From Coprobacillus sp. (GTDB lineage Bacteria; Bacillota_I; Bacilli_A; RFN20; CAG-826), in contig JAJQAG010000002.1 in the NCBI GenBank assembly GCA_021203905.1, positions 62,001-126,000 on the forward strand: a stretch of 64,000 nt of DNA, in the 5' to 3' direction. Made by a program: the position numbers and the translations under genes. The notes under the pieces were generated by a model. That model searched no databases, was not told the origin of the DNA, and saw only the letters and a program-made list of their open reading frames with translations. Below are positions 28,288 through 50,496 of the stretch, one piece after another (the stretch's first letter is position 1; each line of letters begins with the position of its first letter).

Positions 28288-28304
28288 TATATTTTATATA
28301 TTAA
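28284..28304. terminator. AT-only inverted repeat between convergent genes
   Basis: TTAATATAT and ATATATTAA form a perfect 9-bp repeat around TTT, exactly between the ends of the permease and the lipoprotein genes. Its position suggests a bidirectional terminator, but there is no GC in the stem and it would be weak. Confidence 0.4.
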
Positions 28305-30490
28305 CTTATTGTTGTGGGATATCCATGGACATATGGAGTAACTTTTCCTTCAGCGTTAAAGTTTAATCCAAAGGTTCCATCATTATAGTATTCCTTAAAG
28401 GTGTAGTAGTGATCATCTGTATAGGTGACAACTGGATAAGCAGAGTAACCACTAAAACCATCAATCCAACAGACAAGTCGACCCACCCCACGAGAATAAG
28501 AAGTGCTACTCTTGGTGTAGTTAGAGGTCAGAGCAAGATCAAGTTCATAGTATTTTGCACTTCGATAAGGTACCGATGTGGCGTAGCCATTCGTCCTTGT
28601 GTAGTAAGACCAAAACCTCGTTTTATCCCCAAAAACACTATAGGCAGTAGTGTAGTTACTAGTCTCTACATAGTTACAGGGATAAGCCCCAAAAGCGATG
28701 AAATAGGCCGCGACATCAACTGGATCTGTATAGGCATTTGTGGTTCTTTTTGCCGCGTACGCACTGTCATAGGTATCATAGGTGAGAGTCTTATAACTAT
28801 TTACTGTGTATGTACCATTACTATTATAGGTGACATCCACAGGAACCTCTACTGAGGAAGAATTGGCCACTTTAGTGCCCGAGAATATCACTGGTTCAAT
28901 TCTCTTTTGATTTGTACCACAACTAGAAGTTGCCCACGAAGCCTTTGAACCAGAATTATAGTAAACACTTAAACTAGAGATACTGACATCATAGTAAGTC
29001 GTCGAGATACAGAAGAATTGGATATTACTCCCTTCGGTATCAATGGTCACTGTCTTATCACTACTTGAAGTAGAGAGATCATAAGTATAGCCATAGGAAT
29101 TGGTGTTTCCGTAGTATATGTGAGGTACTTCTAGTGTTTTTTGCTTATATGAGTTTGTGGACGTCTTATAGGTCAGTTCAATCTTTGCGATATCATAGAA
29201 TCCTGTGGTATTAAGTAACATTCCTGGAAGTGTACTCGCCGTATTAGCATTTCCTACCTCTGCGAGAATCTTGATGAAGTAGTTAGAGAGCGACACTCCT
29301 CGATACATCTCAAAGGTATAGTTATTATAGGTTTCTGAGGCAAAACCACCAGTAGTGTAACCGGTGATATCACTAGGAAGAGAATTGCTGCTATTTAAGG
29401 TATAGGTCTGTGTATAAGTCTTATCTCCTTCGGTGCTAGGTGTTTCTTGACTCTCTGTGCTAGAGACATATGCGTGAGCGGGGTAATAATTATCTGATCC
29501 AAGATTGCTACTAACGCTATAACACCTTATAGAAGTTAAACCAGATTGATTACCAATAAAGCGACCACCCGAAGCCGCTGTTTTATAAGTATCATAGGTT
29601 GAATCGTAGACCCATGTAAATCTTGTCGTGGACATAGAAAGAGAAGTGCCACTACCACTATAGTAGATGTAATATGTAGAGTTATTCTTAATTGTGGAGA
29701 GAGTGTAGCCTCCACTAACTTCATCAATATAGAAGTCCGCAGCCTCATCCCAACTCGTTGTGGTTTCAACGTCGCTGCCGCTATTATTACCTGTTAGGTA
29801 ATAATATGTGCTTGCAGAGGTGTTATATGCGCCTATCTTATAAGTTGTAACTGTTTCTTCTCCTGGATCTGGTTCTGGCTCAGGCTCTGGCTCTGGCTCA
29901 GGCTCTGGTTCAGGGAGAGGGGTCGCTGTAATGGACGCTGTTGCCTTGACACTTGTATCTTGATCACATGTTGCGGTCACAGTGGCACTTGTGGCCTCAC
30001 TTGCATTGATAGTGTAACCATCCACAGTAAAAGAGGGATTGCTGACACTTAATGTATATGTCGCCACACTTTGATCTGAAGCAGTGCATGTAATCTCACC
30101 ACTTAGATCTAGGGTTTCATCTATTTCAAATTCGTAAGAGGAAGATGCAAAAGAAATAGTGTAGGTCACAATAGGTGTGTCATCATCATCATCTTCGCCT
30201 TCTTCGTCTTCTTCATCATCATTAGGATCTTGTGTGTCTCCACCTTGACCTGGATCCTCAGTATCAGTGGATGATCCTGTGTTCGGGGTCTCATCTTCTT
30301 TTTGATTCTCACTTGATGAAGAGCTTTCCCCATCTGGATTATCTCCTAGTGGTGGTTCGATGGTTTCACCAGTGCTCGTTTCATGACTTCTCCCTGAGTG
30401 ATTGCTATTTGAAATTGTGCAACTAGTTAAACTAATCCCTAGAGCGGCAACTAAACAAAGTAATAAAAATGACCCAAGTTTTCTTTTCAT
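28301..30490 (-). CDS. Large surface lipoprotein with Ig-like domain and Pro-Glu linker
   Basis: I do not recognise a function. The 729-residue product has a lipoprotein signal (KRKLGSFLLLC..., lipobox LTSC, Cys at residue 24). Residues 25-110 are Ser/Thr/Glu/Asp-rich. An Ig-like segment follows (about 112-190: TYTISFASSSYEFEIDETL...). A Pro-Glu repeat linker is at about 192-210, and several Tyr/Ser/Thr-rich beta domains follow. The last ~120 residues (ELDLALTSNYT..., YTDDHYYTFKEYYND, FNAEGKV) look like a compact independent domain of unknown type. It should be anchored outside the membrane, and may bind a polymer or the host. It is transcribed alone from a promoter 10 nt upstream of the ATG. 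Confidence 0.75.
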   Translation of the reverse strand: MKRKLGSFLLLCLVAALGISLTSCTISNSNHSGRSHETSTGETIEPPLGDNPDGESSSSSENQKEDETPNTGSSTDTEDPGQGGDTQDPNDDEEDEEGEDDDDDTPIVTYTISFASSSYEFEIDETLDLSGEITCTASDQSVATYTLSVSNPSFTVDGYTINASEATSATVTATCDQDTSVKATASITATPLPEPEPEPEPEPEPEPDPGEETVTTYKIGAYNTSASTYYYLTGNNSGSDVETTTSWDEAADFYIDEVSGGYTLSTIKNNSTYYIYYSGSGTSLSMSTTRFTWVYDSTYDTYKTAASGGRFIGNQSGLTSIRCYSVSSNLGSDNYYPAHAYVSSTESQETPSTEGDKTYTQTYTLNSSNSLPSDITGYTTGGFASETYNNYTFEMYRGVSLSNYFIKILAEVGNANTASTLPGMLLNTTGFYDIAKIELTYKTSTNSYKQKTLEVPHIYYGNTNSYGYTYDLSTSSSDKTVTIDTEGSNIQFFCISTTYYDVSISSLSVYYNSGSKASWATSSCGTNQKRIEPVIFSGTKVANSSSVEVPVDVTYNSNGTYTVNSYKTLTYDTYDSAYAAKRTTNAYTDPVDVAAYFIAFGAYPCNYVETSNYTTAYSVFGDKTRFWSYYTRTNGYATSVPYRSAKYYELDLALTSNYTKSSTSYSRGVGRLVCWIDGFSGYSAYPVVTYTDDHYYTFKEYYNDGTFGLNFNAEGKVTPYVHGYPTTIS
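29862..29915 (-). repeat. 6-bp tandem repeat encoding Pro-Glu linker
   Basis: About eight copies of a hexanucleotide (GGCTCT/GGCTCA/GGTTCT variants on the plus strand) encode alternating Pro-Glu in the lipoprotein. Such runs can change copy number by slippage without breaking the frame. Confidence 0.85.
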
Positions 30491-31493: not shown

Positions 31494-31584
31494 TGGCGGA
31501 GTAAGAGGGACTCGAACCCTCGCGCCAGTTCCCCGACCTACTTCCTTAGCAGGGAAGCCCCTTCACCAACTTGGGTATTACTCC
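31494..31584 (-). tRNA. tRNA-Ser (anticodon GCU), CCA encoded
   Basis: The 91-nt minus-strand tRNA has acceptor GGAGTAA/TTACTCC, anticodon stem CTTCC/GGAAG with loop CTGCTAA (anticodon GCT, reads AGC/AGU), a long variable arm (TAGGTCGGGGAACTGGCGC), T arm GAGGG-TTCGAGT-CCCTC, discriminator G and encoded CCA (31494-31496). The long variable arm confirms serine. Confidence 0.96.
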
Positions 31585-31656: not shown

Positions 31657-33093
31657 TTAATAGGCTTTCGCCACAAGAACAACCTTAGTGGCACTTTTTC
31701 CACAGCACGCACACTTATCCCCCACTTTTATCTGATTAAAGGGGAGACATCTAATTGTGGCGCTCGTCTCTTCTTTGATTTTATCTTCACACGCTTGATC
31801 ACCACACCACATACATTTAACATATCCAGAGTTAGCGTTTATTGCCTCTTTAAGTTGCTCATATGTTTGGATAGTAGTGGTGTGATCATTCACATACTTT
31901 AAGGCTTTGTTATACATCTCTTCATGAATCTGTTTTAAGGTCGTATTAATCGTATCCACAAGTCCACTTCGACTAGCGCTAATCTTGGTTCCATCATTTC
32001 TCTTTACGAGAGTGACATTTCCTTTTTCAATATCTCTTGGTCCAATCTCTAGTCTAATTGGAACCCCTTTCATCTCGTATTCTGAGAACTTCCATCCTGC
32101 GGTCTTATCACTATCGTCTAGCTCCACTTTAAGACCCGCTTCTTTTAGTTCTTGATAGACTTTCTTGGCTTCATTTAAAACCCCTTCTTTTTGTTGAGCA
32201 ATAGGGATGATGATTACTTGTATTGGAGCGAGATAAGGAGGTAAGACCAAGCCATTATCATCTCCATGCATCATGATGACCGCTCCTAAAAGACGAGTGG
32301 AGGTTCCCCACGATGTCTGATAAGGATGATATAGTTTTCCATCTCTCCCTTGATAGGAGATATTAAAGGCTTCACTAAAGCCTGTTCCAAAGTAGTGACT
32401 AGTTCCACATTGTAAGGCTTTTCCATCAGGATTAAGAGACTCAATCGAGTAGGTCTCTAGAGCGCCCGCAAACTTCTCTTTATCGCTCTTTATTCCTTTA
32501 ACAAAAGGAATTGCGAGTAAGTCTTTTCCAAGTTGATCATAGATATCAAGAATGGATAGGGCTTCATTTCTCGCTTCTATTTCAGTCTCATGAACTGTAT
32601 GTCCCTCTTGCCAGAGAAACTCACTTCCTCTGAGGAAAGGTCTCGTGGTCTTTTCCCAGCGGACGACACTGCACCACTGGTTATAGAGTTTAGGTAAATC
32701 ACGATAGGAGGAGATAATACGAGAGTAGTGCTCACTAAATAAGACCTCACTTGTGGGTCTAATAATAAGCGGATCATCAATCTTATTATTGCCCCCAGTG
32801 GTGGCCACTAAAGTCTCAGGCGCAAAACCCTCAACGTGTTCTTTTTCTTTATTAAAGAGAGATTCAGGGATGACTAAAGGCATGTAGACATTACTATGTC
32901 CCGTTTCTTTAAAGCGTTTATCAAGGTACTCTTTGATATTCTCCCAGATGGCATAACCATAAGGACGATAAATAATGAACCCCTTTACGGGAGCGTAGTC
33001 CATTAATTCCGCTTTCTTGCAGACATCTGTATACCATTGAGCGAAGTCTTCACTCTGCTTGGTAATGCTTTCATTCTTGATTACTTCATCCAT
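31657..33093 (-). CDS. proS: Prolyl-tRNA synthetase, eukaryote/archaeal-like type
   Basis: ProS charges tRNA-Pro. The 478-residue enzyme lacks the large editing insertion of standard bacterial ProRS. It has class II motifs IIRPTSEVLFSEHYS and FLRGSEFLWQEGHT, an anticodon-binding domain (about residues 290-385), and a C-terminal zinc-binding domain with cysteines in CMWCGDQAC and CACCGKS and a terminal Tyr. This architecture is the archaeal/eukaryotic type found in some Mollicutes, Firmicutes and other bacteria. AAAGGAAG precedes the ATG. Without the INS domain, correction of Ala-tRNA-Pro would need a separate protein. Confidence 0.95.
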   Translation of the reverse strand: MDEVIKNESITKQSEDFAQWYTDVCKKAELMDYAPVKGFIIYRPYGYAIWENIKEYLDKRFKETGHSNVYMPLVIPESLFNKEKEHVEGFAPETLVATTGGNNKIDDPLIIRPTSEVLFSEHYSRIISSYRDLPKLYNQWCSVVRWEKTTRPFLRGSEFLWQEGHTVHETEIEARNEALSILDIYDQLGKDLLAIPFVKGIKSDKEKFAGALETYSIESLNPDGKALQCGTSHYFGTGFSEAFNISYQGRDGKLYHPYQTSWGTSTRLLGAVIMMHGDDNGLVLPPYLAPIQVIIIPIAQQKEGVLNEAKKVYQELKEAGLKVELDDSDKTAGWKFSEYEMKGVPIRLEIGPRDIEKGNVTLVKRNDGTKISASRSGLVDTINTTLKQIHEEMYNKALKYVNDHTTTIQTYEQLKEAINANSGYVKCMWCGDQACEDKIKEETSATIRCLPFNQIKVGDKCACCGKSATKVVLVAKAY

Positions 33094-33107: not shown

Positions 33108-34871
33108 TTAATAGATCTTATCAATCGTCTTTAAACGAGTGAGTTTCTTCTCTTCTATTGGTAATATCATTTCATTTGAATATGATATAACCTCACTAGA
33201 GATTAAATCAATTCCTGATTTAATGATGAGTTCAATCGTCGCCCACCCCTCTAGGTCCGTAGCGATAATCGGTTTATGGTATTTAAGAAGGGATTCAATA
33301 AGAGAAGCGGTAGAGAGTCTTGTCTTCGTATTTCTCTTTATCTCCCAAGTAAGAGAGGAGCCCACAATATAATAATCAAAAGTGGAGTAGACAGGATTAT
33401 CGAGTAAGAGATTCTTATCTCTCATCAACACGCCAATCTCAAACCCTAGACTCTTAATCTCTTTCATTCTCTCCACAAGAACCGAGGTATACTCACTATT
33501 CTCATAGACATCTTTCTCTAGAAACACTAAGACAAGATGAATATCTTTTACCCCTGGAACCGTAGGTAAGAAATCAATAATATCATCTAAGTTGGTCATC
33601 GAGACTTGATAGAAGAGTTTCTCTTTTTCTCTCTGAGGAACTTCTTGCGCAAACTTGGAGATAATGTTTCTTGACACCTTCATAAAGATATCTCGAGACT
33701 TATTGAGTTCATAGGCGTAGTGGATAACCTCTTCATAAGAAGAGAAACTCGTATTATAGAGTCTCACATAGGAGAAGTATCCCATAACTTCTGGTTTATT
33801 GACATCAATAATATGTCTGAAGACATATTTCATGGAATCATTTCTGAGTAAGAGATCAATCTGATCTTCATATTGAAAGTAGTTATTCTCCACACTGGAG
33901 GCGACCTCATTACGATGGAGATGATAGATCTTATTCTCTTGGTGGGCATAGGTCGCTGCACTCTGGCTCTCTCTGATAATCGCGTCAAAGTTTTGATAGA
34001 AAGCGGAATTCTCCACAATACCCACCGCAAAGGAGACAGATTCTTCAAAGCTATTGAGTTCCATCGCTTTATTGAGTTCATGGGTAATCGCTTCCACTAA
34101 AGAGATAGCTTCCTGGGCACTAGCCATATGAAGATCAAACAAGAAGAGTTCATCTTCCCTTGACTCCATAATCTGTCTCTTCAGTTTAGGAGAAGACGCA
34201 AAAGGATAGATCTCATTTCGTAAGGTCATCGAGACAAACCTCTCCTCTCTATCTGTGGATAAGATTTTTTGTTTAAGGTGGAAGAAACGGATACAGAAAG
34301 TATAACCAGTAGTGGACTTCTTATTATTGATGAGACGAGAGATGTAATCCTTGTCCACAACTCCCGCTCCACCACGACCTTTGTGGTATCTCTTGGCGGT
34401 GTTAACTGGAGTGATATATCTAAGGATTAAACTCTCAAGGTGGATAAGCCCGCTATTGGCGTCAAAGTAAAGAAACTTTAAAAGAGAGAAATATGTCTTC
34501 CTTCCTCGATTGATGACAATATCCGCTTCAAGGTATTCTTCAGTCCTTGTGTAATCCTCAACGATTGATTGAATCCAAGCCTTAACTCTCTCGACATCAC
34601 TAGAGTGGAATCTCGCATAAAAGGCATCTATGCTCATAGTGTGTTTGTGCTTTAAGTCAGTGCGGTTAAAGTAGGTGACCACTCTTCGTTTGACATCCAC
34701 TATATAAACTCTTGGAGTGTTAGATTGCTCCATGATTCGTATTCTGGCTTTCTCATTGTTGGAGTGAAGAACCCCATAGGTGATACAGAACGCTAAAACA
34801 ATGACAATCGCTGACATTAGGATGGAAAAGAAGATAACAAATGCTCGATCAGAGAAATTACCAAAATCCAT
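33108..34871 (-). CDS. Membrane protein with PAS-like and degenerate GGDEF and EAL domains
   Basis: The 587-residue protein (start at 34871) has one membrane helix (about residues 11-35) and a PAS-like region (about 50-150). A GGDEF-like domain follows (about 165-330), in which the signature reads REDEL within ESREDELFLFDL, and SFAVGIVEN and the AATYAHQENKIYHL end match the family. The C-terminal EAL-like domain (about 340-575) has FSYVR where EALLR is expected. It lacks the DDFGTG acidic pair and ends with HKPIIATDLEG..IIKSGIDLISSEVISY, matching the EAL C-terminus. Catalytic residues for making or cleaving cyclic di-GMP are therefore missing. A role as nucleotide receptor or as a scaffold is likely. 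It lies 14 nt upstream of proS and may share its transcript. Confidence 0.75.
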   Translation of the reverse strand: MDFGNFSDRAFVIFFSILMSAIVIVLAFCITYGVLHSNNEKARIRIMEQSNTPRVYIVDVKRRVVTYFNRTDLKHKHTMSIDAFYARFHSSDVERVKAWIQSIVEDYTRTEEYLEADIVINRGRKTYFSLLKFLYFDANSGLIHLESLILRYITPVNTAKRYHKGRGGAGVVDKDYISRLINNKKSTTGYTFCIRFFHLKQKILSTDREERFVSMTLRNEIYPFASSPKLKRQIMESREDELFLFDLHMASAQEAISLVEAITHELNKAMELNSFEESVSFAVGIVENSAFYQNFDAIIRESQSAATYAHQENKIYHLHRNEVASSVENNYFQYEDQIDLLLRNDSMKYVFRHIIDVNKPEVMGYFSYVRLYNTSFSSYEEVIHYAYELNKSRDIFMKVSRNIISKFAQEVPQREKEKLFYQVSMTNLDDIIDFLPTVPGVKDIHLVLVFLEKDVYENSEYTSVLVERMKEIKSLGFEIGVLMRDKNLLLDNPVYSTFDYYIVGSSLTWEIKRNTKTRLSTASLIESLLKYHKPIIATDLEGWATIELIIKSGIDLISSEVISYSNEMILPIEEKKLTRLKTIDKIY

Positions 34872-34893: not shown

Positions 34894-34902
34894 ATTATAA
34901 CA
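34894..34902 (-). promoter_or_regulatory. Extended -10 promoter that decides the start of the GGDEF/EAL-like gene
   Basis: On the minus strand TGTTATAAT lies at 34894-34902. It falls between an upstream ATG at 34922 and the ATG at 34871, so a transcript from it can use only the latter. That start also places the membrane helix at residues 11-35. Confidence 0.6.
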
Positions 34903-35054
34903 ACTTTTATGAATATTTGCATTCATAAACCACGGCATAATATTACCTCGATAAATATTTATGTGAGAAATTTCTCTTTTTTAGTGGAGATTTGCGCAAA
35001 ATTTTAAAAAAATATGCCCTTTTTAGTGATAAAATGCATTGTTTTTACAAACGA

Positions 35055-35086
35055 TAAATAAAAGAAAGACCACCTTTTAGATGGTC
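35055..35086 (-). terminator. Terminator of the small lipoprotein gene
   Basis: On the minus strand GACCA and TGGTC (35068-35086) form a stem with a few more inner pairs, followed by TTTCTTTTATTT. It lies about 35 nt after the stop of the gene ending at 35121. Confidence 0.75.
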
Positions 35087-35723: not shown

Positions 35724-36836
35724 ATGGAACTTGAATTATTAAGTGACCCTCCTATAGATCCTCTGAGTAGTCCCTCCGTCTATTCCGGAGCCTTATTTGG
35801 CATTCCAAACTGGATAAGCTGGGTGCTTATCGCAGTGATTGTGATCATATGTGCTTTCTTCTCCTGTAGTGAGAATGCTTTTGATAATTGTAATAAATAT
35901 CACTTTAAGGTCTTAGCGGATAAAGGGAATAAGACCGCAGGGATTATCGTCAAACTCACTGAGAAAGTGGATAACACTCTCGTCAGTGTTTTAGTGGCTA
36001 ACAATGCTTTCCAAACTATTATGAGCTTTATAGCCGCTTTACTATTCGCGGATATCTTTTCTAATCTCGATAGCAGTGTGACCGCGATTATTGCCACAGT
36101 GGTGATGGCCTTTGTGGTCTATATTATTGGAGATACAATCCCCAAAATCCTGGCGGATAAAGTTCCTAACACGATGGTAAAGATCCTGGCGTGGCCAGTG
36201 TATATAACCGGTATCATTCTCTATCCTATTCATATCTTATTTAGATTCCTTCTTAAGGGAGTCCAAAAGATGTTTAAGGTTAAGGATGATAACATCTTAA
36301 CCAAAGAAGATTTTCTTGAGAGAGCGGATGAAGCTCTCTCCACTGATAACCCCACTCAAGAAGAAGAGGAGCTCTTTGAAGATGAAGAGATTGCTTTAAT
36401 TAATAAAGCCTTTGTTTTTGATACCATTCCCGCAAGTAGTATTCTCACTCCTCTTGAGGATGTTGTGGCAATTGATATCAAGGATCTTAATGCCAAGTAT
36501 GTCAATAAGTTTATCCTTGAGAGCGAGTACTCTCGTTTCCCCATCTATGATGGAAGTAAAGACAACATTGTGGGTGTCTTAACCATTAATAGTTACTTTA
36601 AAGAATATGCGGATGATCCCCATCTAGATTTAAGAAGTGTCTTATATCCACCAACATTCATCTACGACGACATGAAGGTTGATGAAGTCTTTAAGAAGAT
36701 CAACGATGAGCAAGTCCATATAGCGATAGTGAAGAACCACCAAGAACAAGTCATTGGGATGGTCACATTAGAAGATGTCCTTGATGAACTTGTAGGAGAG
36801 AACTCCTTGTGGAATAGTGAAGGAGAAAACATCTAA
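35724..36836 (+). CDS. CNNM/CorC-family membrane protein (DUF21 + CBS), short form
   Basis: The 370-residue protein has a DUF21/CNNM membrane domain (four hydrophobic segments between about residues 30 and 190) and two CBS motifs (TPLEDVVAIDIKDLNA..., YDDMKVDEVFKKINDEQVHIAIV..., about 240-360). Relatives are linked to magnesium or cobalt efflux and tolerance. The C-terminal CorC/HlyC transporter-associated domain is missing. The stop overlaps the next start as TAATG; since the second gene has that domain, they could form a mixed dimer. The first 25 residues before the first helix are Pro/Ser-rich. Confidence 0.85.
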   Translation: MELELLSDPPIDPLSSPSVYSGALFGIPNWISWVLIAVIVIICAFFSCSENAFDNCNKYHFKVLADKGNKTAGIIVKLTEKVDNTLVSVLVANNAFQTIMSFIAALLFADIFSNLDSSVTAIIATVVMAFVVYIIGDTIPKILADKVPNTMVKILAWPVYITGIILYPIHILFRFLLKGVQKMFKVKDDNILTKEDFLERADEALSTDNPTQEEEELFEDEEIALINKAFVFDTIPASSILTPLEDVVAIDIKDLNAKYVNKFILESEYSRFPIYDGSKDNIVGVLTINSYFKEYADDPHLDLRSVLYPPTFIYDDMKVDEVFKKINDEQVHIAIVKNHQEQVIGMVTLEDVLDELVGENSLWNSEGENI

Positions 36837-38176
36837 TGTCTAGCGGTGCACTAGTGGCTATCTATGTCGTCGTCATCATCATCCTTGTGGCTCTTAGTTA
36901 CTTTTTCTCTACTCTTGATATGGCATATGGAAGTGTGACTCTCGCCCGTCTTGAGAAAAAAGTGGATTCCGGAAAGAAAAAAGATAAGACCGCTTATAAA
37001 TTAAAGAAACACTACGATAAGACGATATCCACAATCTTATTCTTTAATGATATCTGTAATGCTGGTATTGATATCTTTGCCACCTTCCTTGGGGTCTTAC
37101 TTGCGGTGGAATTTTGGAATATGGATGCTTCTATGGCGGACACTATGGGACTTATCTTCTCCCTTATTGCCCTTATCTTTAAGGTGGCCTTTGGCGATAT
37201 CATCGCCAAGAGCATGGGCAAGGTCCATAACTATCAATATGCCTATATCTTTGCCACCTTTACTAATATCTGTTATTACATCTCCTATCCGATAACCACT
37301 GCAGTGGGAGGATTTGGTTCTTTAGTGGCTTATCCTATTACTCATAATGTCAAAGATAATGTCACAGATGAAGAGGATTTAGAAGAGATGGTCGATGAAG
37401 CGGAAGAGAGTGGAGTGGTCGATGAAGATAAAGCGGAGATCCTTAGAGGAGCCATTGATTACGCGACCACAGAGACCTATGAAATCATGACTCCAAGAGC
37501 GAAGATTTATGCGGTCAACAAGAATAAAACCGTCTCTGAAATTCTTAAGGATGAGAAAGCTTTCTCTCATTCTCGTATCCCTGTTTATGAAGAGAATATT
37601 GATAATATTATTGGTTATATAAGAATTAGAGACCTCATTGCGTTGAAGGTTAATAAAATGGGAGAGAGTATCGACTCTATTATTAAAGAGATTCCAGTCT
37701 TTCCTCGAACCGCGGAGATCAATGATATCCTTAAGTATTTTAATGAGAATAAAGTCCATATTGGTGTGGTCTTAGATGAGTATGGGGGCACCGAAGGTCT
37801 TATCACTCGAGAGGATATTATTGAAGAGCTCGTGGGAGAAATCTGGGATGAAACTGATGATGTTGAAGAACCCTATGAAGAGAGAAGTGATGGCTCCTAT
37901 ATCGTTGATGGGGGAATGAACCTTGAAGACTTCTGCGATTTACTTGATATCGATTATGAAGAGATAGAGACAGAGTATGTCACCATCGGTGGCTTTATCA
38001 TCGATTTGCTCGATGATAGGTTCGCTAAAGTGGATGATGAAGTAGAGATTGATGGCGTGACCCTTAAGGTCATCGCTGTGGATAAGAAACGCACAGTGAA
38101 GAAACTCCTTGTGACTCCGAGAGCGGAGGAAGTGGAAGAAGAGGTTAAACCCAAAGAGAAAGGAAAGAAGAAGTAG
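36836..38176 (+). CDS. CNNM/CorC-family membrane protein (DUF21 + CBS + CorC_HlyC)
   Basis: The 446-residue partner has the full architecture: DUF21 membrane domain (about residues 5-185), a CBS pair (TPRAKIYAVNKNKTV..., VFPRTAEINDILKYFNENKVHIGVVLDEYGG) and a CorC/HlyC domain (about 340-425: DGSYIVDGGMNLEDFCDLL ... TIGGFIIDLLDDRFAKVDDEVEIDG). The tail is Lys/Glu-rich. Together with the upstream gene it is probably a cation (Mg-type) exporter or regulator. It is translationally coupled to the first gene. Confidence 0.88.
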   Translation: MSSGALVAIYVVVIIILVALSYFFSTLDMAYGSVTLARLEKKVDSGKKKDKTAYKLKKHYDKTISTILFFNDICNAGIDIFATFLGVLLAVEFWNMDASMADTMGLIFSLIALIFKVAFGDIIAKSMGKVHNYQYAYIFATFTNICYYISYPITTAVGGFGSLVAYPITHNVKDNVTDEEDLEEMVDEAEESGVVDEDKAEILRGAIDYATTETYEIMTPRAKIYAVNKNKTVSEILKDEKAFSHSRIPVYEENIDNIIGYIRIRDLIALKVNKMGESIDSIIKEIPVFPRTAEINDILKYFNENKVHIGVVLDEYGGTEGLITREDIIEELVGEIWDETDDVEEPYEERSDGSYIVDGGMNLEDFCDLLDIDYEEIETEYVTIGGFIIDLLDDRFAKVDDEVEIDGVTLKVIAVDKKRTVKKLLVTPRAEEVEEEVKPKEKGKKK

Positions 38177-43226: not shown

Positions 43227-45986
43227 TCAAACTGGTATGTAGGAAACAGATGCACAGATGGTCATGGTAACAAAGATGAAGCAATATGCCACCGCCCCAG
43301 ACCAAACATTTCCAGTATGTTTATATGTTAGTCTATTAAATAGTGGTAGTAGCGCCATCATTGTGATCAGAGCAAAGACCATATTGATATATAGCCAGAC
43401 CTCTTCGCCGCTGGCGCCATAACCATAATAGACAGTTCCTGTTGTAAAGAAGCAAGTGTAGTTAATAATGAGAATAAAGATGAGACCAATACAGTTAGCC
43501 ACCATACTGACAGTGATAACTTTCCACTCTTTCCATCCTTCTCTCGCTATAGAGCAGTTTACTCTAATAGAGTTAGAAATATAGAAGATAAAGATAATAG
43601 GAATGTATTCAAGAGCGGTAATGGCCATTCTTCCATTAATTGTTGAAGCACTGACAAGCATGAATCTGAAGTCTTGGTGGAAACTCCACTGGCTGACATA
43701 GACCATTAGGTAGAAGGCTCCTATCATAATGACGGAAATGAGCAGTGCTTTTAAGGTGTTACATAAGACGTTGTGCCAAGATGTTCCCCTAATTCTGATA
43801 TAACCAAATTTTGACCAATCAAGAGGATCATTTCGACCTTTAACCTTATTTCTAATATAGATACAGAGATTTTCTATGGCCGTGCTTCCAAAGAAACATA
43901 TGAGACCAATTGTTCCATTGATAGCCGCCCAAAGGAGAATCGCATTAATCATTCGTGCAGGGAAAACATAGGTATACACACTAGCGGAATTTCCTACTGG
44001 GAATATCTCAATTGATAAGTTGGCTAATGGAATATAGTCTAAGCACGCAATAATGGCACAGACTATTAAGATTGTCCAGAAGGTAATTCTATGCCCAAGA
44101 GAGGCATGTTTCTTTGTTGTGGCTGATGCACTACCTATGGCCATCGCCGCGCCCCTATCACTATTTGCAATGGCTTCACTTCCTCCGCCTATATCTCCAT
44201 CATCCCCATCAGATGAATCGCTGTCATCATCCTTGGTGGTGGGAGTGTCCAGTGGTGGATCTAGTGTCCCCACAGAACTAATCTGGTCAATAGTTTTAAT
44301 TGAGGGATCTCTTGTGAGAGCAATACTTGCATCTTCTGCCTCTTTAATTTCTTTTGCCTTGGTAATGGTCTTAAAGAATCCAGTTTTCATTAAGACCGCA
44401 CACAATGCAACGATGAAAGTAAAGCCTGCCGCAAGAGCTAAACCATTAGAGGCTTCTTGTCCAAACCATGTTTGATGGGTGCCATCAAGACCAGAGTTAA
44501 GGCCTAGACTAACGTCGAAGAAGTCAATAGTGTTAGCAATAGACTTACTATCGTACATCTCGAAGCAGTGATTAGTGTACTCTCTATGTAAGACACGATA
44601 TGTCCCATCTTCCATTGAGCCGTACTCGACATCAATTTCATATGCTCCTCTCTCTTCTGAAGTGGCATCATTTCCCACTTCACTAATGAATCTTTGAGCA
44701 ATTATCTCCCAGGATGAAGTATCGGTTTGATATCGGTAAGACCCTTCATCATAGTAGGCATATGACATTGCAGCATTACATCTTAGGTTATTATATTTAC
44801 TTGCGGCAGAGTTCTTAATGTAGCCAGAAACATATAGTGATTTAATGATGCTTTCTTCGTAAGAGTTACCCGCCATATCGGAAGCTAAACCAACACAGTC
44901 ACCTCCTCCAGCAGAGTGGCCCATAGCCCCGAAGCGATTCTTATCGCAAAATTTAAAATCATCAGTGTTGTTATAGACATATTGGACTAAGTACTCCATG
45001 CCGTTTTCTCCATCTGTTGATGGTTCGGTTGTCCCCCCCTGACCTCCTGGATCAATCGTGAAGACAACAGCACCACGACGGGAGAGCTCAATCGCATATT
45101 GAGACATCGTCATCTTGGTTCTAGTAAAACCCGGTAGGACGAATACTGTTGGAGCGGGATTTTCTTTTGTGGCACTATCTGGGATATAGACGGTACATGA
45201 ATAGGTTGCTCCTTCTGGGACAGCATATGTTGTCCCGTGAATTTGTCCTCGGTTATAAGAAAGAGACATCTCTCTTGTCAGGGTGAAGTCGGTAACACTG
45301 ACACTGAAACCTGATGTCTCAAAACACATTCCTGAGAATCCAAGAATGAAAATGAGGACAAAAGACACACACATCGTAATAAAAGATTTAGAAGTAAAGA
45401 ATTTTACTTTTGCACTCTTTTCTTTCTTTTCCTTCTTTGGTTTTTCTACAACCTCTTGTGCGCCATCACGAGAAGCATCTTTTTTCCAAAATGCTAGTTT
45501 CTTGTAGCACTTTTGGAACCAGCTATCTTGTTTTACTGTTTCTTCTTCAACTGTAGTGTCCAAGGTTTCCTCAACCGGAAGAGTCTCACTTCCTATCTCT
45601 TGAGAGATAGTTGTCTCTTTTAAAAGATCCTCTTCCTCTAGTGGCGTCTCTCCCTCTTCTGTTTTCTCTTCCCACACAGCATTTTTTGTGGATGAGAGGA
45701 ACATCGAGAGAGCTTCAGTAATGAAAGAAGCCAAACCCACAATTGAGAGAATAAAGGAAACAATGTACTTAGCTTTGTGATGTTTCGTGATGTCATTATC
45801 CTCTATGTGTTCTTTTACTGATGCCACTAAGAAGCCATCATAGAGGCTGATTAGTGCGAGTATAAGAAAGAGCCAATAAATGTAGTTTGAGAGACCAAAG
45901 AACATTCCTGCGGCAATAAAATAGAGGCCGCAGAAAACATAGAGAACAATTGAGGTTGCTTTTAGCAATTTAATTTTAAGCGACAT
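43227..45986 (-). CDS. Polytopic membrane protein with extracytoplasmic alpha/beta-hydrolase domain
   Basis: The 919-residue protein has about three helices in its first 95 residues, an acidic cytoplasmic stretch, another helix (about 196-220), then an alpha/beta-hydrolase domain (about 235-530). The nucleophile elbow is GHSAGG within RFGAMGHSAGGGDCVG, after VFVLPGFTRTKMTMSQYAIELSRRG and IDPGGQGG; a candidate catalytic His is in TNHCFEMYD. A Ser/Asp-rich linker and about eight more helices complete the C-terminus. I chose the ATG at 45986 because GGAGG lies 9 nt before it; the ATG at 45992 is only 3 nt from that site. It could hydrolyse an ester on the outer face, and the C-terminal helices may move or sense the product. 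I know no characterised protein of this design. Confidence 0.7.
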   Translation of the reverse strand: MSLKIKLLKATSIVLYVFCGLYFIAAGMFFGLSNYIYWLFLILALISLYDGFLVASVKEHIEDNDITKHHKAKYIVSFILSIVGLASFITEALSMFLSSTKNAVWEEKTEEGETPLEEEDLLKETTISQEIGSETLPVEETLDTTVEEETVKQDSWFQKCYKKLAFWKKDASRDGAQEVVEKPKKEKKEKSAKVKFFTSKSFITMCVSFVLIFILGFSGMCFETSGFSVSVTDFTLTREMSLSYNRGQIHGTTYAVPEGATYSCTVYIPDSATKENPAPTVFVLPGFTRTKMTMSQYAIELSRRGAVVFTIDPGGQGGTTEPSTDGENGMEYLVQYVYNNTDDFKFCDKNRFGAMGHSAGGGDCVGLASDMAGNSYEESIIKSLYVSGYIKNSAASKYNNLRCNAAMSYAYYDEGSYRYQTDTSSWEIIAQRFISEVGNDATSEERGAYEIDVEYGSMEDGTYRVLHREYTNHCFEMYDSKSIANTIDFFDVSLGLNSGLDGTHQTWFGQEASNGLALAAGFTFIVALCAVLMKTGFFKTITKAKEIKEAEDASIALTRDPSIKTIDQISSVGTLDPPLDTPTTKDDDSDSSDGDDGDIGGGSEAIANSDRGAAMAIGSASATTKKHASLGHRITFWTILIVCAIIACLDYIPLANLSIEIFPVGNSASVYTYVFPARMINAILLWAAINGTIGLICFFGSTAIENLCIYIRNKVKGRNDPLDWSKFGYIRIRGTSWHNVLCNTLKALLISVIMIGAFYLMVYVSQWSFHQDFRFMLVSASTINGRMAITALEYIPIIFIFYISNSIRVNCSIAREGWKEWKVITVSMVANCIGLIFILIINYTCFFTTGTVYYGYGASGEEVWLYINMVFALITMMALLPLFNRLTYKHTGNVWSGAVAYCFIFVTMTICASVSYIPV

Positions 45987-47628
45987 AAGCATTTACCTCC
46001 GTTGCATAATTGTTGAAATATATTAACGATGTAGGAGCCGTGGAGTAATTCCCTTTAATCCACTCCCAAACAAAGTTGCACAATGCTGTATCGGTGAGGC
46101 GAGCAATATATCTTGAGGTAGATCCTATATAGTAACCCGAAATGTTCTCAATAAAATCTGTTCCTTGATTCATTCCACCAGTTGAACTGATGTTGTTTGC
46201 CCAACCAAGCATAATATCGACATCTCCGTCTGTCTTGATGGCTCCGCATGATGTTGCGACATCCCCTTCGTATCCTTTGTATTCAATCACTGAACCCACA
46301 TATTCACTTGTTGCTAGATATGAATCTAGATTTGTGCTAAAAGCATCAATATCAGATTGATAGATACCACTGGTTTCTGATTTGGCGTACCAAGCAATCT
46401 TAAGATCATGTTGGCTTGCTTCTCCTTCATCTTTGGTATCACCGTCGTCATCATCACTCACTGGGGGTTGATTGTAATTGTCTTTAATCCAATTCCAGAC
46501 AACATTGCATAACTCTGTATCACTACATCTAGTGATGTAGCGGGAAGTAGAACCAATATAATAACCACTAAGATGTTCATAATAATCAATGTCTAGTGTC
46601 ATGCCACCAGTAGAGGATATATTGCCGCCCCAACCAAGCATAATATCGATATCACCATCAGTTCTAATCGCTTCACATGTTGTGGCGACATCACCATCAT
46701 ATCCACGATAACCGATATATACGTTATAACCCGCACTAGTTAAGTAGTTATCAAGTGCAGCACTAAAGGCATCAATATCTTCTTGATAGATACCACTAGT
46801 ATCTGATTTGGCGTACCAGGCAATCCATAAATCGTAGTTGATTATTTGTGGTTCTTCTTCGGTTCCTGCACTTTGATTCTCAATAGGTATTCCATAATAA
46901 TCAAAAATCCAGTAATAGACCTTATTAGAGAATGGCCTATCTGAGAGTCTCGCACAGCCTCGAGATTTATCACCAATAGCGATACCAGTGTGATTTTCTA
47001 AAATATCCACACCTTCGACCATTCCACCAGTTCCAACAAGGTTACTTGTAGAAGACCAGCCAAACATGATATCAACATCGCCATCTTTTCTTATTGCCGC
47101 ACAGGTTGTTCCAACATCACCTGTATATTCACGGATAACGATATCCATGGAATAGGGGTCGTAACCTTCTTCCTCTAGCCAGTTATACATATCGCCGACA
47201 AAGCTGTCCATATAGTCTTGGTCTAGTCCGGAAGTATTAGTTCTTCCATACCAAGCGAGAACTAGGTCTCGCTGATATATTTCTGTCCATGCTGAATAAA
47301 GAGTTATTTCTCTCGATTTTTTGGCGAGATGATCCTTAACATCGTCATAACGGATAAGTCCAGTGTTTGCGGAGAGTAGATCCTCACTATCCACACCTTC
47401 TGTCCAATTATCGATAACTGACCACCCCACGAATTTTAAGCCATCTGCTGTTGGTTCGGGAACAACGGCATTGTTAAAGGTGTTAACAACATATGTTCCG
47501 ACATATTCCCCTCGATCCATAAGAGTCACTTCAATGTCTTTTTCTAGTCCAGTCATCATCTGACAAGAACCTAAAACCATTGTGCAACCCAATGCAGCAA
47601 CTACCAGACATAAGAATTTCTTTTTCAT
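45976..47628 (-). CDS. Lipoprotein with InlB-like repeat and three copies of a novel ligand-binding-like module
   Basis: The 550-residue lipoprotein (lipobox LGSC, Cys 22) starts at 47628, where AAGGAGG lies 7 nt upstream; the ATG at 47634 is too close to that site. Residues 30-115 resemble an InlB B-type repeat (KFVGWSV ... REITLYSAW). Three copies of one module follow, at residues 121-246, 266-385 and 408-527. Each has AWY.....SG(L/I), Y.GDV.T(T/S)C.AI..DGD(V/I)DIM(L/F)GW, a GGM and a C-terminal helix with W-x-W-I or YWIF. The pattern suggests one lobe of a solute-binding-protein fold, but that is inference. Acidic linkers separate copies. It overlaps the membrane hydrolase start and follows the SGNH lipoprotein by 12 nt. 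Confidence 0.75.
   Translation of the reverse strand: MKKKFLCLVVAALGCTMVLGSCQMMTGLEKDIEVTLMDRGEYVGTYVVNTFNNAVVPEPTADGLKFVGWSVIDNWTEGVDSEDLLSANTGLIRYDDVKDHLAKKSREITLYSAWTEIYQRDLVLAWYGRTNTSGLDQDYMDSFVGDMYNWLEEEGYDPYSMDIVIREYTGDVGTTCAAIRKDGDVDIMFGWSSTSNLVGTGGMVEGVDILENHTGIAIGDKSRGCARLSDRPFSNKVYYWIFDYYGIPIENQSAGTEEEPQIINYDLWIAWYAKSDTSGIYQEDIDAFSAALDNYLTSAGYNVYIGYRGYDGDVATTCEAIRTDGDIDIMLGWGGNISSTGGMTLDIDYYEHLSGYYIGSTSRYITRCSDTELCNVVWNWIKDNYNQPPVSDDDDGDTKDEGEASQHDLKIAWYAKSETSGIYQSDIDAFSTNLDSYLATSEYVGSVIEYKGYEGDVATSCGAIKTDGDVDIMLGWANNISSTGGMNQGTDFIENISGYYIGSTSRYIARLTDTALCNFVWEWIKGNYSTAPTSLIYFNNYATEVNAYVA
46048..47268 (-). repeat. Three tandem copies of a ~120-residue coding module
   Basis: Copies lie at 46891-47268, 46474-46833 and 46048-46407, separated by about 55-65 nt. 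Copies 2 and 3 are closest (shared SGYYIGSTSRYI, WYAKS-TSGIYQ). A fourth copy is in the upstream gene at 47644-47991. Divergence between copies shows old, selected duplication and not assembly error. Confidence 0.88.
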
Positions 47629-47640
47629 TCTCATACCTCC

Positions 47641-49236
47641 TTAACTATTAAAAACAACATCGTACGCCACGTTTTGTAAGTACGAAGCTGTCTTTTGACT
47701 AATGGCGGATACTTCTATTCCGCTATTATTTTCAATGTAGTCAGTTCCTTGACTCATTCCGCCTGTAGAGCCAATATTACTTGCCCAACCAAGCATGATG
47801 TCAACATCTCCATCGTTCATGATGGCTTGACAAGAAGGGCCGACATTTCCGTCGTAGGCTCGCATCTCAATACTGACATCTGTGTATCCTTGAGTGGCAA
47901 GATAAGTGCTGAGTTCGTTTTTAATCTCGTTGACATAGTCAGCATTAAGACCAGAGGTCTCAACTTTGTCGTACCACGCAATGACAAGAGAGTTATCCTT
48001 GCCTCCTTCTCCAGAAATATCCATATGCTCAATTGGAGCATTAAAATATTCATCAAAGAGCCAGTAGTATGCAAGAGCGGTTAATTCTCCATCATTGCAT
48101 CTTGCAGCATAACGAGAGAATGTATCTCCAAGATATGTGGTTTCGCGCACATCACAATTTAATATGGTTGCAGCGTGTACGCACGCAGAGAGATAACTTC
48201 CAAAGTAAGATGGGTGCTTATTATCTGAGTAATATAAGTTGATATCACTGTTCTCATAGACATAGGTAAAAGCTTTTCCCACTTCGCAAACTTTAAGTCC
48301 GAGTTCACTAGCGCATTGTTCTGTAGCATTACGGAGAAGCATCTCATACTCAGGAATTGTGGAAACCGATGGTTCATCATTAGCTGCTTCTTGATAACCC
48401 CATGTCGCATAGAGATATATTTCACAATTTTCTTGAGTCTCATTGATTCTTGTTTGCAGAGTGGCCACAGCATCTTTATAGAGATTGTAGTTTGTTGCTG
48501 GTCTCGTACTATGTTCCTGAAGGACTATAACATCGTACTGGTTTGTGGTGAGAGCTTCCTCAACCTCTGCTCCTCTTTCATCTGTTGGATCCGCAAATTG
48601 AGCAAGGGTATGACTTCCTTCGGTAATGGATTCGGCATAAACCTCTTCTCCCGCCGCATTAGCAATCTCTTGGAAAAGCGCAGGAATATCATTGTAATAA
48701 GTAAAACTATTACCGATGAATAAAGCAGTCACACTTGACCAGAGTTCTGGTTCTCCGTTTTTGAATCTCCAATAAATACCTCCTTCAGTGTGTCTCTCAG
48801 AGGAATAAACATAGACAATAGTGCCGTCATCACTATAGAAGTCTTCACTATACCCGTAGAGTTCCACTTCTTCTTTAAATGCCATTGATCCAATAGATGT
48901 AGCAGTGGAGGGAATTATCGCTTTGGTGATGTTACATCCATAGAATGACCAAGTTCCGATATGAGTAATCCCCTCTCCAATCTCCACTCCAGTCACTCTT
49001 CCCCATCTATAGGACCAGGGAGCTCCTTCATCATCGACATAATCTGGCATTGCTCCCTCACCTTCAACGACTAGAGTGAAGCCATAATATCCATCATCTT
49101 CGAAGCGAGCACTAATCGTGTCTGTAACTTCCCATTCGTATGTATTCGTTTTATCACAGCTGGTAGTGGTGGTCGCTAATCCAAGTGATAAAACGACAGC
49201 ACATAATGCTGTCGTCAGAGTTTTCAGTCTTTTCAT
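47641..49236 (-). CDS. Lipoprotein with LRR_5-like segment, SGNH/DUF4886-type hydrolase domain and the shared module
   Basis: The 531-residue product has a lipoprotein signal (lipobox TTSC, Cys 27). Residues about 85-130 resemble a BspA-type leucine-rich repeat (VTGVEIGEGITHIGTWSFYGC). Residues about 168-385 form an SGNH-type domain of the DUF4886 class: LFIGNSFTYYNDIPALFQEIA (GNS block), VIVLQEHSTRP, and DNKHPSYFGSYLSA with the Asp/His pair. Residues 416-531 are one copy of the module repeated in the next gene. It should be an extracellular esterase or lyase anchored to the membrane. The ATG overlaps the malic enzyme stop (ATGA), with AAGGAGG 7 nt upstream. Confidence 0.75.
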   Translation of the reverse strand: MKRLKTLTTALCAVVLSLGLATTTTSCDKTNTYEWEVTDTISARFEDDGYYGFTLVVEGEGAMPDYVDDEGAPWSYRWGRVTGVEIGEGITHIGTWSFYGCNITKAIIPSTATSIGSMAFKEEVELYGYSEDFYSDDGTIVYVYSSERHTEGGIYWRFKNGEPELWSSVTALFIGNSFTYYNDIPALFQEIANAAGEEVYAESITEGSHTLAQFADPTDERGAEVEEALTTNQYDVIVLQEHSTRPATNYNLYKDAVATLQTRINETQENCEIYLYATWGYQEAANDEPSVSTIPEYEMLLRNATEQCASELGLKVCEVGKAFTYVYENSDINLYYSDNKHPSYFGSYLSACVHAATILNCDVRETTYLGDTFSRYAARCNDGELTALAYYWLFDEYFNAPIEHMDISGEGGKDNSLVIAWYDKVETSGLNADYVNEIKNELSTYLATQGYTDVSIEMRAYDGNVGPSCQAIMNDGDVDIMLGWASNIGSTGGMSQGTDYIENNSGIEVSAISQKTASYLQNVAYDVVFNS

Positions 49237-50441
49237 TCGTAGACCTCCTTAAAATCTTTAAGATTTTTATAAAGTTTCGAGACCCCAGAAGTAATTGCAG
49301 CTTTCGCTACTTCCTTTGCAACACACTTATGACAATTTAGATCATAAGCATGGGGGAGAATATAATCTTTGTTTAGTTCCTGTTCGCTAACACAGTTAGC
49401 AATACCGATAGCAGCGGCAAACATCATTTCTAAATTAATGGTGCTCGCTCTAACATCAAGGGCTCCGCGAAATAATCCCGGAAACACTAAGACGTTATTA
49501 ATTTGATTAGTATATTCACTAGATCCAGTTCCCACAATGTAGGCTCCAGCTTCTAGTGCATCTTCAGGTTCAATTTCTGGCACTGGATTAGCACAGACGA
49601 ACAAGATAGCCTTCTTCGCCATAGAGGCAACCATTTCCTTGGTGACACAGTGAGGGCCACTGACCCCAATAAGGACATCTGCTCCCACCAAAGCGTCTTT
49701 GAGAAGTCCGTGTTGATGTTCTAGATTGGTCACTTTGACAATTTCTTGTTGGGCCGCATTAAGTTTTGGCTCACCTTCGCAAAGGATGCCATCAAGTCCA
49801 CACATCGTGATGTGTTTTACTCCTGAAGCAAGAAAGAACTTTGCCACCGCAATACCAGCGGATCCAGGACCATTGATGACTACTTTAATATCCTTGATAT
49901 CTTTTTTGACAAGTTTAAGAGAATTTAAAAGAGCCGCCAACATGACAATTGCCGTTCCGTGCTGATCATCATGAAAAACGGGAATATCCAGTTCCTCTTT
50001 TAGTCTTTTCTCAATCTCAAAGCACCTTGGAGCGGAAATATCTTCTAGATTAATTCCTCCGAATGATCCCGAGATGATTTTTATCGTATTAATAATTTCG
50101 TTTGTATCTTTTGTCTTAAGACAAATCGGATAGGCATCAACATTACCATAGGCTTTAAATAAAGCGCTTTTCCCCTCCATAACAGGCATTCCCGCTTCTG
50201 GTCCAATATCGCCTAAACCAAGAACCGCCGTGCCATCAGTAATGACTGCAACAGTGTTCCATCTTCTTGTTAAGTCAAAACTCTTGCTGACGTCTTTTTT
50301 AATTTCTAAGCATGGTTGAGCCACACCGGGAGTGTATGCCAAAGCAAGCTCCTCGTTATCAGTTACACTAACACGGGAAATGGTCTCAATCTTTCCCCTC
50401 CACTCGTAGTGTTTTTTAAGAGATTCATCATGACAATCCAT
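49233..50441 (-). CDS. NAD(P)-dependent malic enzyme
   Basis: Malic enzyme decarboxylates malate to pyruvate with NAD(P) reduction. The 402-residue protein is the short bacterial form: YTPGVAQPC and the Tyr/Lys catalytic region, [34 protein letters not shown] (metal ligands), the nucleotide-binding [10 protein letters not shown], and CANPVPEI. I start at the ATG at 50441 (MDCHDESL); a TTG 15 nt earlier is less likely. It is first in an operon with two surface lipoproteins and a membrane hydrolase, and lies opposite a LysR gene. This suggests the system releases or takes up malate, or an acid converted to it. Confidence 0.93.
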
Positions 50442-50496
50442 CGACAATGCCCCCAAAACGATAAAATACGAAAAAATTATTTATGTAATTACACAG

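Follow-up and report, generated by a model that had tools for sequence, protein, structure and literature searches.

The gene at positions 33108 to 34871 of the window, the 64,000-nucleotide stretch of DNA analysed here, encodes a membrane protein with PAS-like, GGDEF-like and EAL-like domains in which both catalytic centres have been destroyed. By profile searches it is a member of a single-copy core family spread over a whole order of bacteria with small genomes (class Bacilli), and in most of that order it lies directly ahead of proS. Neither the breadth of the family nor the pairing had been noticed in the initial annotation. Our preferred reading, which we hold to be probable, is that the protein is a membrane-anchored pseudo-enzyme scaffold that acts independently of c-di-GMP and is co-expressed with prolyl-tRNA synthetase (ProRS). 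The two genes are as follows.

33108–34871, minus strand: coding sequence of the degenerate PAS-GGDEF-EAL membrane protein, 587 aa.
31657–33093, minus strand: proS, family I (archaeal/eukaryotic-type) prolyl-tRNA synthetase (TIGR00408, 584.8 bits), 14 bp downstream.

The reading frame was unbroken from 33108 to 34871, so the gene is intact and of full length, as originally described. The longest frame at this position extends to 34922. We preferred the start at 34871 because the majority of homologues align from the residue encoded there, an AAGG lies 8 nt 5′ of it, and a TATAAT box falls within the additional stretch of the longer frame. An AlphaFold (AF2) model of the 587-aa protein (pLDDT 83.9, pTM 0.61) gave one N-terminal transmembrane helix followed by PAS-like, GGDEF-like and EAL-like domains.

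34776–34847, minus strand: N-terminal transmembrane helix, approximately residues 9–32 (hydrophobic sequence; helix 9–49 in the AF2 model).
34407–34721, minus strand: PAS-like domain, approximately residues 51–155, the most conserved domain.
33906–34364, minus strand: degenerate GGDEF-like domain, approximately residues 170–322 (family profile and AF2/Foldseek).
33111–33869, minus strand: degenerate EAL-like domain, approximately residues 335–587, an EAL-like barrel with none of eight catalytic residues.

The helix runs on to residue 49, and the basic residues that follow the membrane segment would, by the positive-inside rule, place the C-terminal part of the protein in the cytosol. Conservation was highest in the PAS-like domain (D59, F84, W99 and IHLES at 143–147), followed by the EAL-like and then the GGDEF-like domain.

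The initial annotation had claimed that the protein follows the GGDEF and EAL folds, and structure prediction returned both. Pfam EAL (PF00563) matched residues 339–557 above its curated cut-off (35.0 vs 31.3 bits) and was matched by 13 of 26 aligned family members at E 0.01. Pfam GGDEF (PF00990) had no match over the cut-off either in the protein or in its genome, and the GGDEF-like fold was detected only through the structure and the family profile. A phmmer search of the PDB with the single protein gave no match; the family profile was required, and when built from 26 relatives it matched the solved GGDEF-EAL proteins PA0575, FimX, DosP and MorA. The top Foldseek hit of the model was the PAS-GGDEF-EAL protein PA0861 (E 5e-20), then DosP, LapD and MorA, with FimX also matched, and the EAL part alone aligned to BifA with a TM score of 0.79. 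Whole-chain TM scores were low (~0.45), so the modelled arrangement of the domains relative to one another is tentative.

To locate the catalytic positions of the EAL domain, hhalign was run with ordinary EAL proteins from this order as reference. The canonical set E, N, E, D, D, K, E and Q is replaced by F366, S424, V449, L482, M483, I502, T538 and S558, respectively. Four of the eight are the metal ligands described for RocR, E175, N233, E265 and D295 (PMC9993111). The other four are general background on EAL enzymes. Two signature sites read as follows.

33762–33782, minus strand: GYFSYVR (residues 364–370) at the position of GxExLxR, which provides c-di-GMP binding and a metal-ligating Glu.
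34143–34157, minus strand: EDELF (residues 239–243) at the position of GGDEF.

The EAL triplet is thus F366-S367-Y368, the FSY reported initially; the REDEL read at the GGDEF site was off by one register, since the profile alignment and the β-turn of the model both place E239-D240-E241-L242-F243 there. The accompanying claim that the acidic metal ligands of EAL are gone and neither active site can work by the known mechanism was borne out, with no EAL catalytic residue left and GG absent. Among 76 aligned members, 68 kept none of the eight EAL catalytic residues and eight kept one. GG, the I-site RxxD and ExLxR were each found in 0/76. A sequencing error or a lone odd strain was considered as the source of the unusual motifs and ruled out, the loss being common to all 76 members compared.

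A search with the window protein alone found it in 60 of 76 relatives; with the family profile, 141 of the 147 genomes examined in the order gave a match. Strong full-length matches (E ≤ ~1e-22) were obtained in 137/147, nearly all as a single copy; four of the 141 were weak, perhaps representing GGDEF/EAL proteins of the ordinary kind. Sampling beyond the order covered 296 genomes at the level of the class and 392 at that of the phylum. Genomes outside the order gave nothing but partial matches of the ordinary GGDEF/EAL kind, restricted to the GGDEF-EAL part and no higher than 81 bits, suggesting that the family, N-terminal part included, is confined to the order as far as sampled. The genomes are mostly draft assemblies, and calls of absence depend on HMM thresholds. 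The gene was missing from both genomes of one genus (94 and 96% complete) and can therefore be dispensed with in that genus at least. In the open-access literature searched, no description of the family and no paper joining c-di-GMP with RF39 (possibly this order or a neighbour of it) were found, and the Tenericutes/Bacilli genome surveys examined do not mention EAL or GGDEF.

Given the loss of every catalytic signature, the protein might be a decaying, functionless relic of c-di-GMP signalling. It also evolves faster than proS: its nearest relative shares 52% identity, whereas proS retains 57–70% over far wider distances. Nevertheless, the gene is intact in nearly all genomes, one of 0.79 Mb included, and the residues of the PAS-like domain are conserved. 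For one sister pair of genomes, dN was 0.142 and dS 1.59; the resulting dN/dS of ~0.09 indicates that the gene is under purifying selection. We regard a relic as extremely improbable.

We then consider c-di-GMP itself. The initial annotation noted no other GGDEF or EAL gene in the window, and this was true of the whole 790-kb genome (97% complete), in which no GGDEF domain was detected and the degenerate protein was the sole EAL match. Within the order, a GGDEF domain was recognisable in 54 of 147 genomes and PilZ in none; in 14 control genomes the same searches recovered GGDEF in eight and PilZ in five. Strong EAL matches tracked the GGDEF-bearing genomes with one exception (G098). The degenerate protein was equally common in genomes without GGDEF (88/93) and with it (49/54; Fisher p = 0.50), a distribution that argues strongly for a function independent of c-di-GMP.

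A receptor of the LapD/FimX kind, in which the inactive EAL domain or the GGDEF I-site binds c-di-GMP and passes the signal on, would agree with the domain order, with the membrane attachment as in LapD, with the Foldseek matches to LapD and FimX, and with the GGDEF proteins of those 54 relatives. ExLxR, however, is described as the motif that determines whether degenerate EAL receptors bind c-di-GMP (PMC10333796), and neither it nor RxxD survives in any of the 76 members. Because 88 of 93 GGDEF-less genomes, the window's own among the GGDEF-less, keep the protein and PilZ is absent, we judge such a receptor very unlikely. The receptor or protein-interaction role first proposed is therefore narrowed: its c-di-GMP receptor half fell away, and protein interaction stands as the best class of function.

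A receptor for another nucleotide is somewhat less improbable, though we still doubt it. c-di-AMP would be the likeliest ligand, as its synthase occurs throughout the clade: a DAC domain was present in 37 of 39 genomes, that of the window included, so that c-di-AMP is probably made, and a reshaped EAL barrel could accommodate a different ligand. On the other side, no known c-di-AMP site was recognisable in the protein, there was no consistent gene linkage to DAC, and the usual degrading enzyme seems present. DHH proteins occurred in 39/39 genomes, most of which have one of GdpP length (~660–710 aa); judging from that length and five sequences, this protein probably degrades c-di-AMP. In two genomes of one genus, a DAC gene lies ~3.5 kb from the locus on the opposite strand, an arrangement that is not general.

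The pairing with proS was examined across the order. Directly downstream and on the same strand, proS was found at 40 of 49 loci with enough flanking sequence, the next commonest neighbour reaching 14 of 49; after loci were added the count was 51 of 68, with related genomes counted as separate observations. Adjacency held at 40/40 loci of the window's family taken together with two named assemblies, 9/10 in family f5 and 2/3 in f2, and at none of 15 in f3, f4, f6 and f8, so the pairing is not essential to the function. The gap to proS had a median of 12 bp, and the flanking genes otherwise varied among loci. No family member adjoined proS at 78 other loci taken from public genomes, among them those of the closest non-members (assemblies labelled Acholeplasmataceae). 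Public genome contigs searched with the degenerate protein yielded no relatives, and a ProRS-based search of such contigs found the pair in only the two named assemblies. In the window, proS is closely followed by a tRNA-Ser gene (31494–31584). In many relatives, a tRNA gene (tRNA-Ser by eye) is divergent just upstream of the degenerate gene, at loci L048, L070–L074, L076, L078, L079, L086 and L087.

The upstream region contained three elements.

34894–34899, minus strand: TATAAT, a −10-like box before the start codon.
34907–34928: perfect palindrome TTATGAAT-N6-ATTCATAA, just upstream of the −10 box.
35068–35086, minus strand: terminator-like hairpin after the upstream gene (four such sites found vs 1.6 expected).

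As the hairpin ends the upstream gene, the degenerate gene is probably the first in its transcript and probably leads a two-gene unit with proS. A sigma-70 scan listed no full promoter at the TATAAT, and an Rfam scan of the window listed no T-box or other leader RNA ahead of the pair. The palindrome occurs once in the 790-kb genome and is kept, with a different spacer, in two further genomes from this genus; it is operator-like for these reasons and might bind a specific repressor or activator. An operator general to the family is not claimed: upstream palindromes were seen in 13 of 49 relatives (p up to 0.05), and their sequences were unlike. In several relatives (loci L070, L071, L073 and L074) only 6–8 nt separate the −10 box from the earliest start codon that could be used, suggesting a leaderless or nearly leaderless mRNA.

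Several other genes around the locus were recorded. Two tandem genes for CNNM/GldE-like CBS-domain transporters (35724–38176) lie next to it, as they do in two further members of the genus. The product of 28301–30490 (729 aa) matched nothing in NCBIfam, and its only Pfam match was weak and of the low-complexity type. A four-gene minus-strand run (43227–50456) encodes a PETase/hydrolase-like protein of 921 aa, a protein of 552 aa that belongs to no Pfam family, a DUF4886 protein bearing BspA-type repeats, and malic enzyme.

What the pairing means can be read in two ways. The link may be purely transcriptional, the two genes sharing expression for reasons that have nothing to do with ProRS function. 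Families f3, f4, f6 and f8 keep the protein without the pairing, and the short gaps also fit plain operon packing; against this, the pair stays together across f1, f5 and f2 in shuffled, reduced genomes whose flanks change. We give a transcriptional-only link an even chance. It is compatible with the scaffold proposed above and competes only with the idea that ProRS is the partner. As a physical partner ProRS is a hypothesis, the leading candidate yet in itself rather unlikely, and a link through expression alone fits the data at least as well. Slightly more doubtful still is a dead c-di-GMP enzyme rewired to ProRS, tethering the synthetase to the membrane or regulating it on a PAS-sensed cue; if true, this would link membrane state to translation. 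The near-invariant pairing in most of the order points to a partner that is specific and can be tested.

Here, we propose a model for the c-di-GMP-independent scaffold. In an ancestral membrane-anchored PAS-GGDEF-EAL protein, both catalytic centres would have been lost either ahead of the order's radiation or in its early stages, and the gene would have been retained afterwards as a core, single-copy gene with another function. The transmembrane helix is predicted to anchor it at the membrane, where the PAS-like domain, as the most constrained part, may sense a cytosolic or membrane-proximal cue or mediate dimerisation. The GGDEF-like and EAL-like folds could then relay to a partner as protein-binding surfaces, in the manner of E. 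coli CsrD and Salmonella YdiV. Across most of the order the gene would be the first of a tight two-gene unit and its product would be made together with ProRS, the candidate partner being ProRS itself or a factor linked to its supply.

Degenerate GGDEF-EAL proteins are usually seen within working c-di-GMP networks, where a role of the messenger is hard to exclude. The present family is conserved throughout an order, dozens of whose genomes keep it although they have neither a recognisable cyclase nor a PilZ receptor, and it demonstrates in nature that a GGDEF-EAL framework can be retained for another purpose.

Among known systems, GdpP is a c-di-AMP phosphodiesterase of the form TM-PAS-degenerate GGDEF-DHH. 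The window protein resembles it in the membrane helix, the PAS domain, the degenerate GGDEF domain and the low-GC Gram-positive clade, whereas GdpP ends in DHH-DHHA1 and the window protein, which had no DHH match in Pfam, ends in a degenerate EAL. A replacement of GdpP was ruled out, as the genome separately encodes a GdpP-length DHH protein and hhalign of the family against GdpP gave only a weak match in the GGDEF region (probability 10). LapD and FimX share the degenerate GGDEF-EAL tandem and are, with PA0861, among the best structural neighbours, but they retain ExLxR and bind c-di-GMP, while this family has lost ExLxR in all members and is found in GGDEF-less genomes. YdiV (STM1344) and BluF are likewise inactive EAL folds serving as protein-binding modules; YdiV, which interacts with FlhD4C2 and does not bind c-di-GMP (PMC10333796), differs in being soluble and EAL-only with an FlhD-type partner. 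In E. coli, degenerate GGDEF/EAL domains form specific contacts in the interactome (PMC5635695), and CsrD promotes CsrB/C decay without binding c-di-GMP (PMC10333796). CsrD (GAPES4-HAMP-dGGDEF-dEAL) is, like the window protein, a membrane protein in which GGDEF and EAL are both inactive. It has another sensor part, in place of which our model has one transmembrane helix and a PAS-like fold, and it retains ExMxR and acts on CsrB/CsrC RNA with RNase E; no CsrB/C RNA was found within the window. CsrD lives among active c-di-GMP enzymes, whereas the window protein has lost all catalytic residues and combines a PAS-like sensor with proS as its neighbour.
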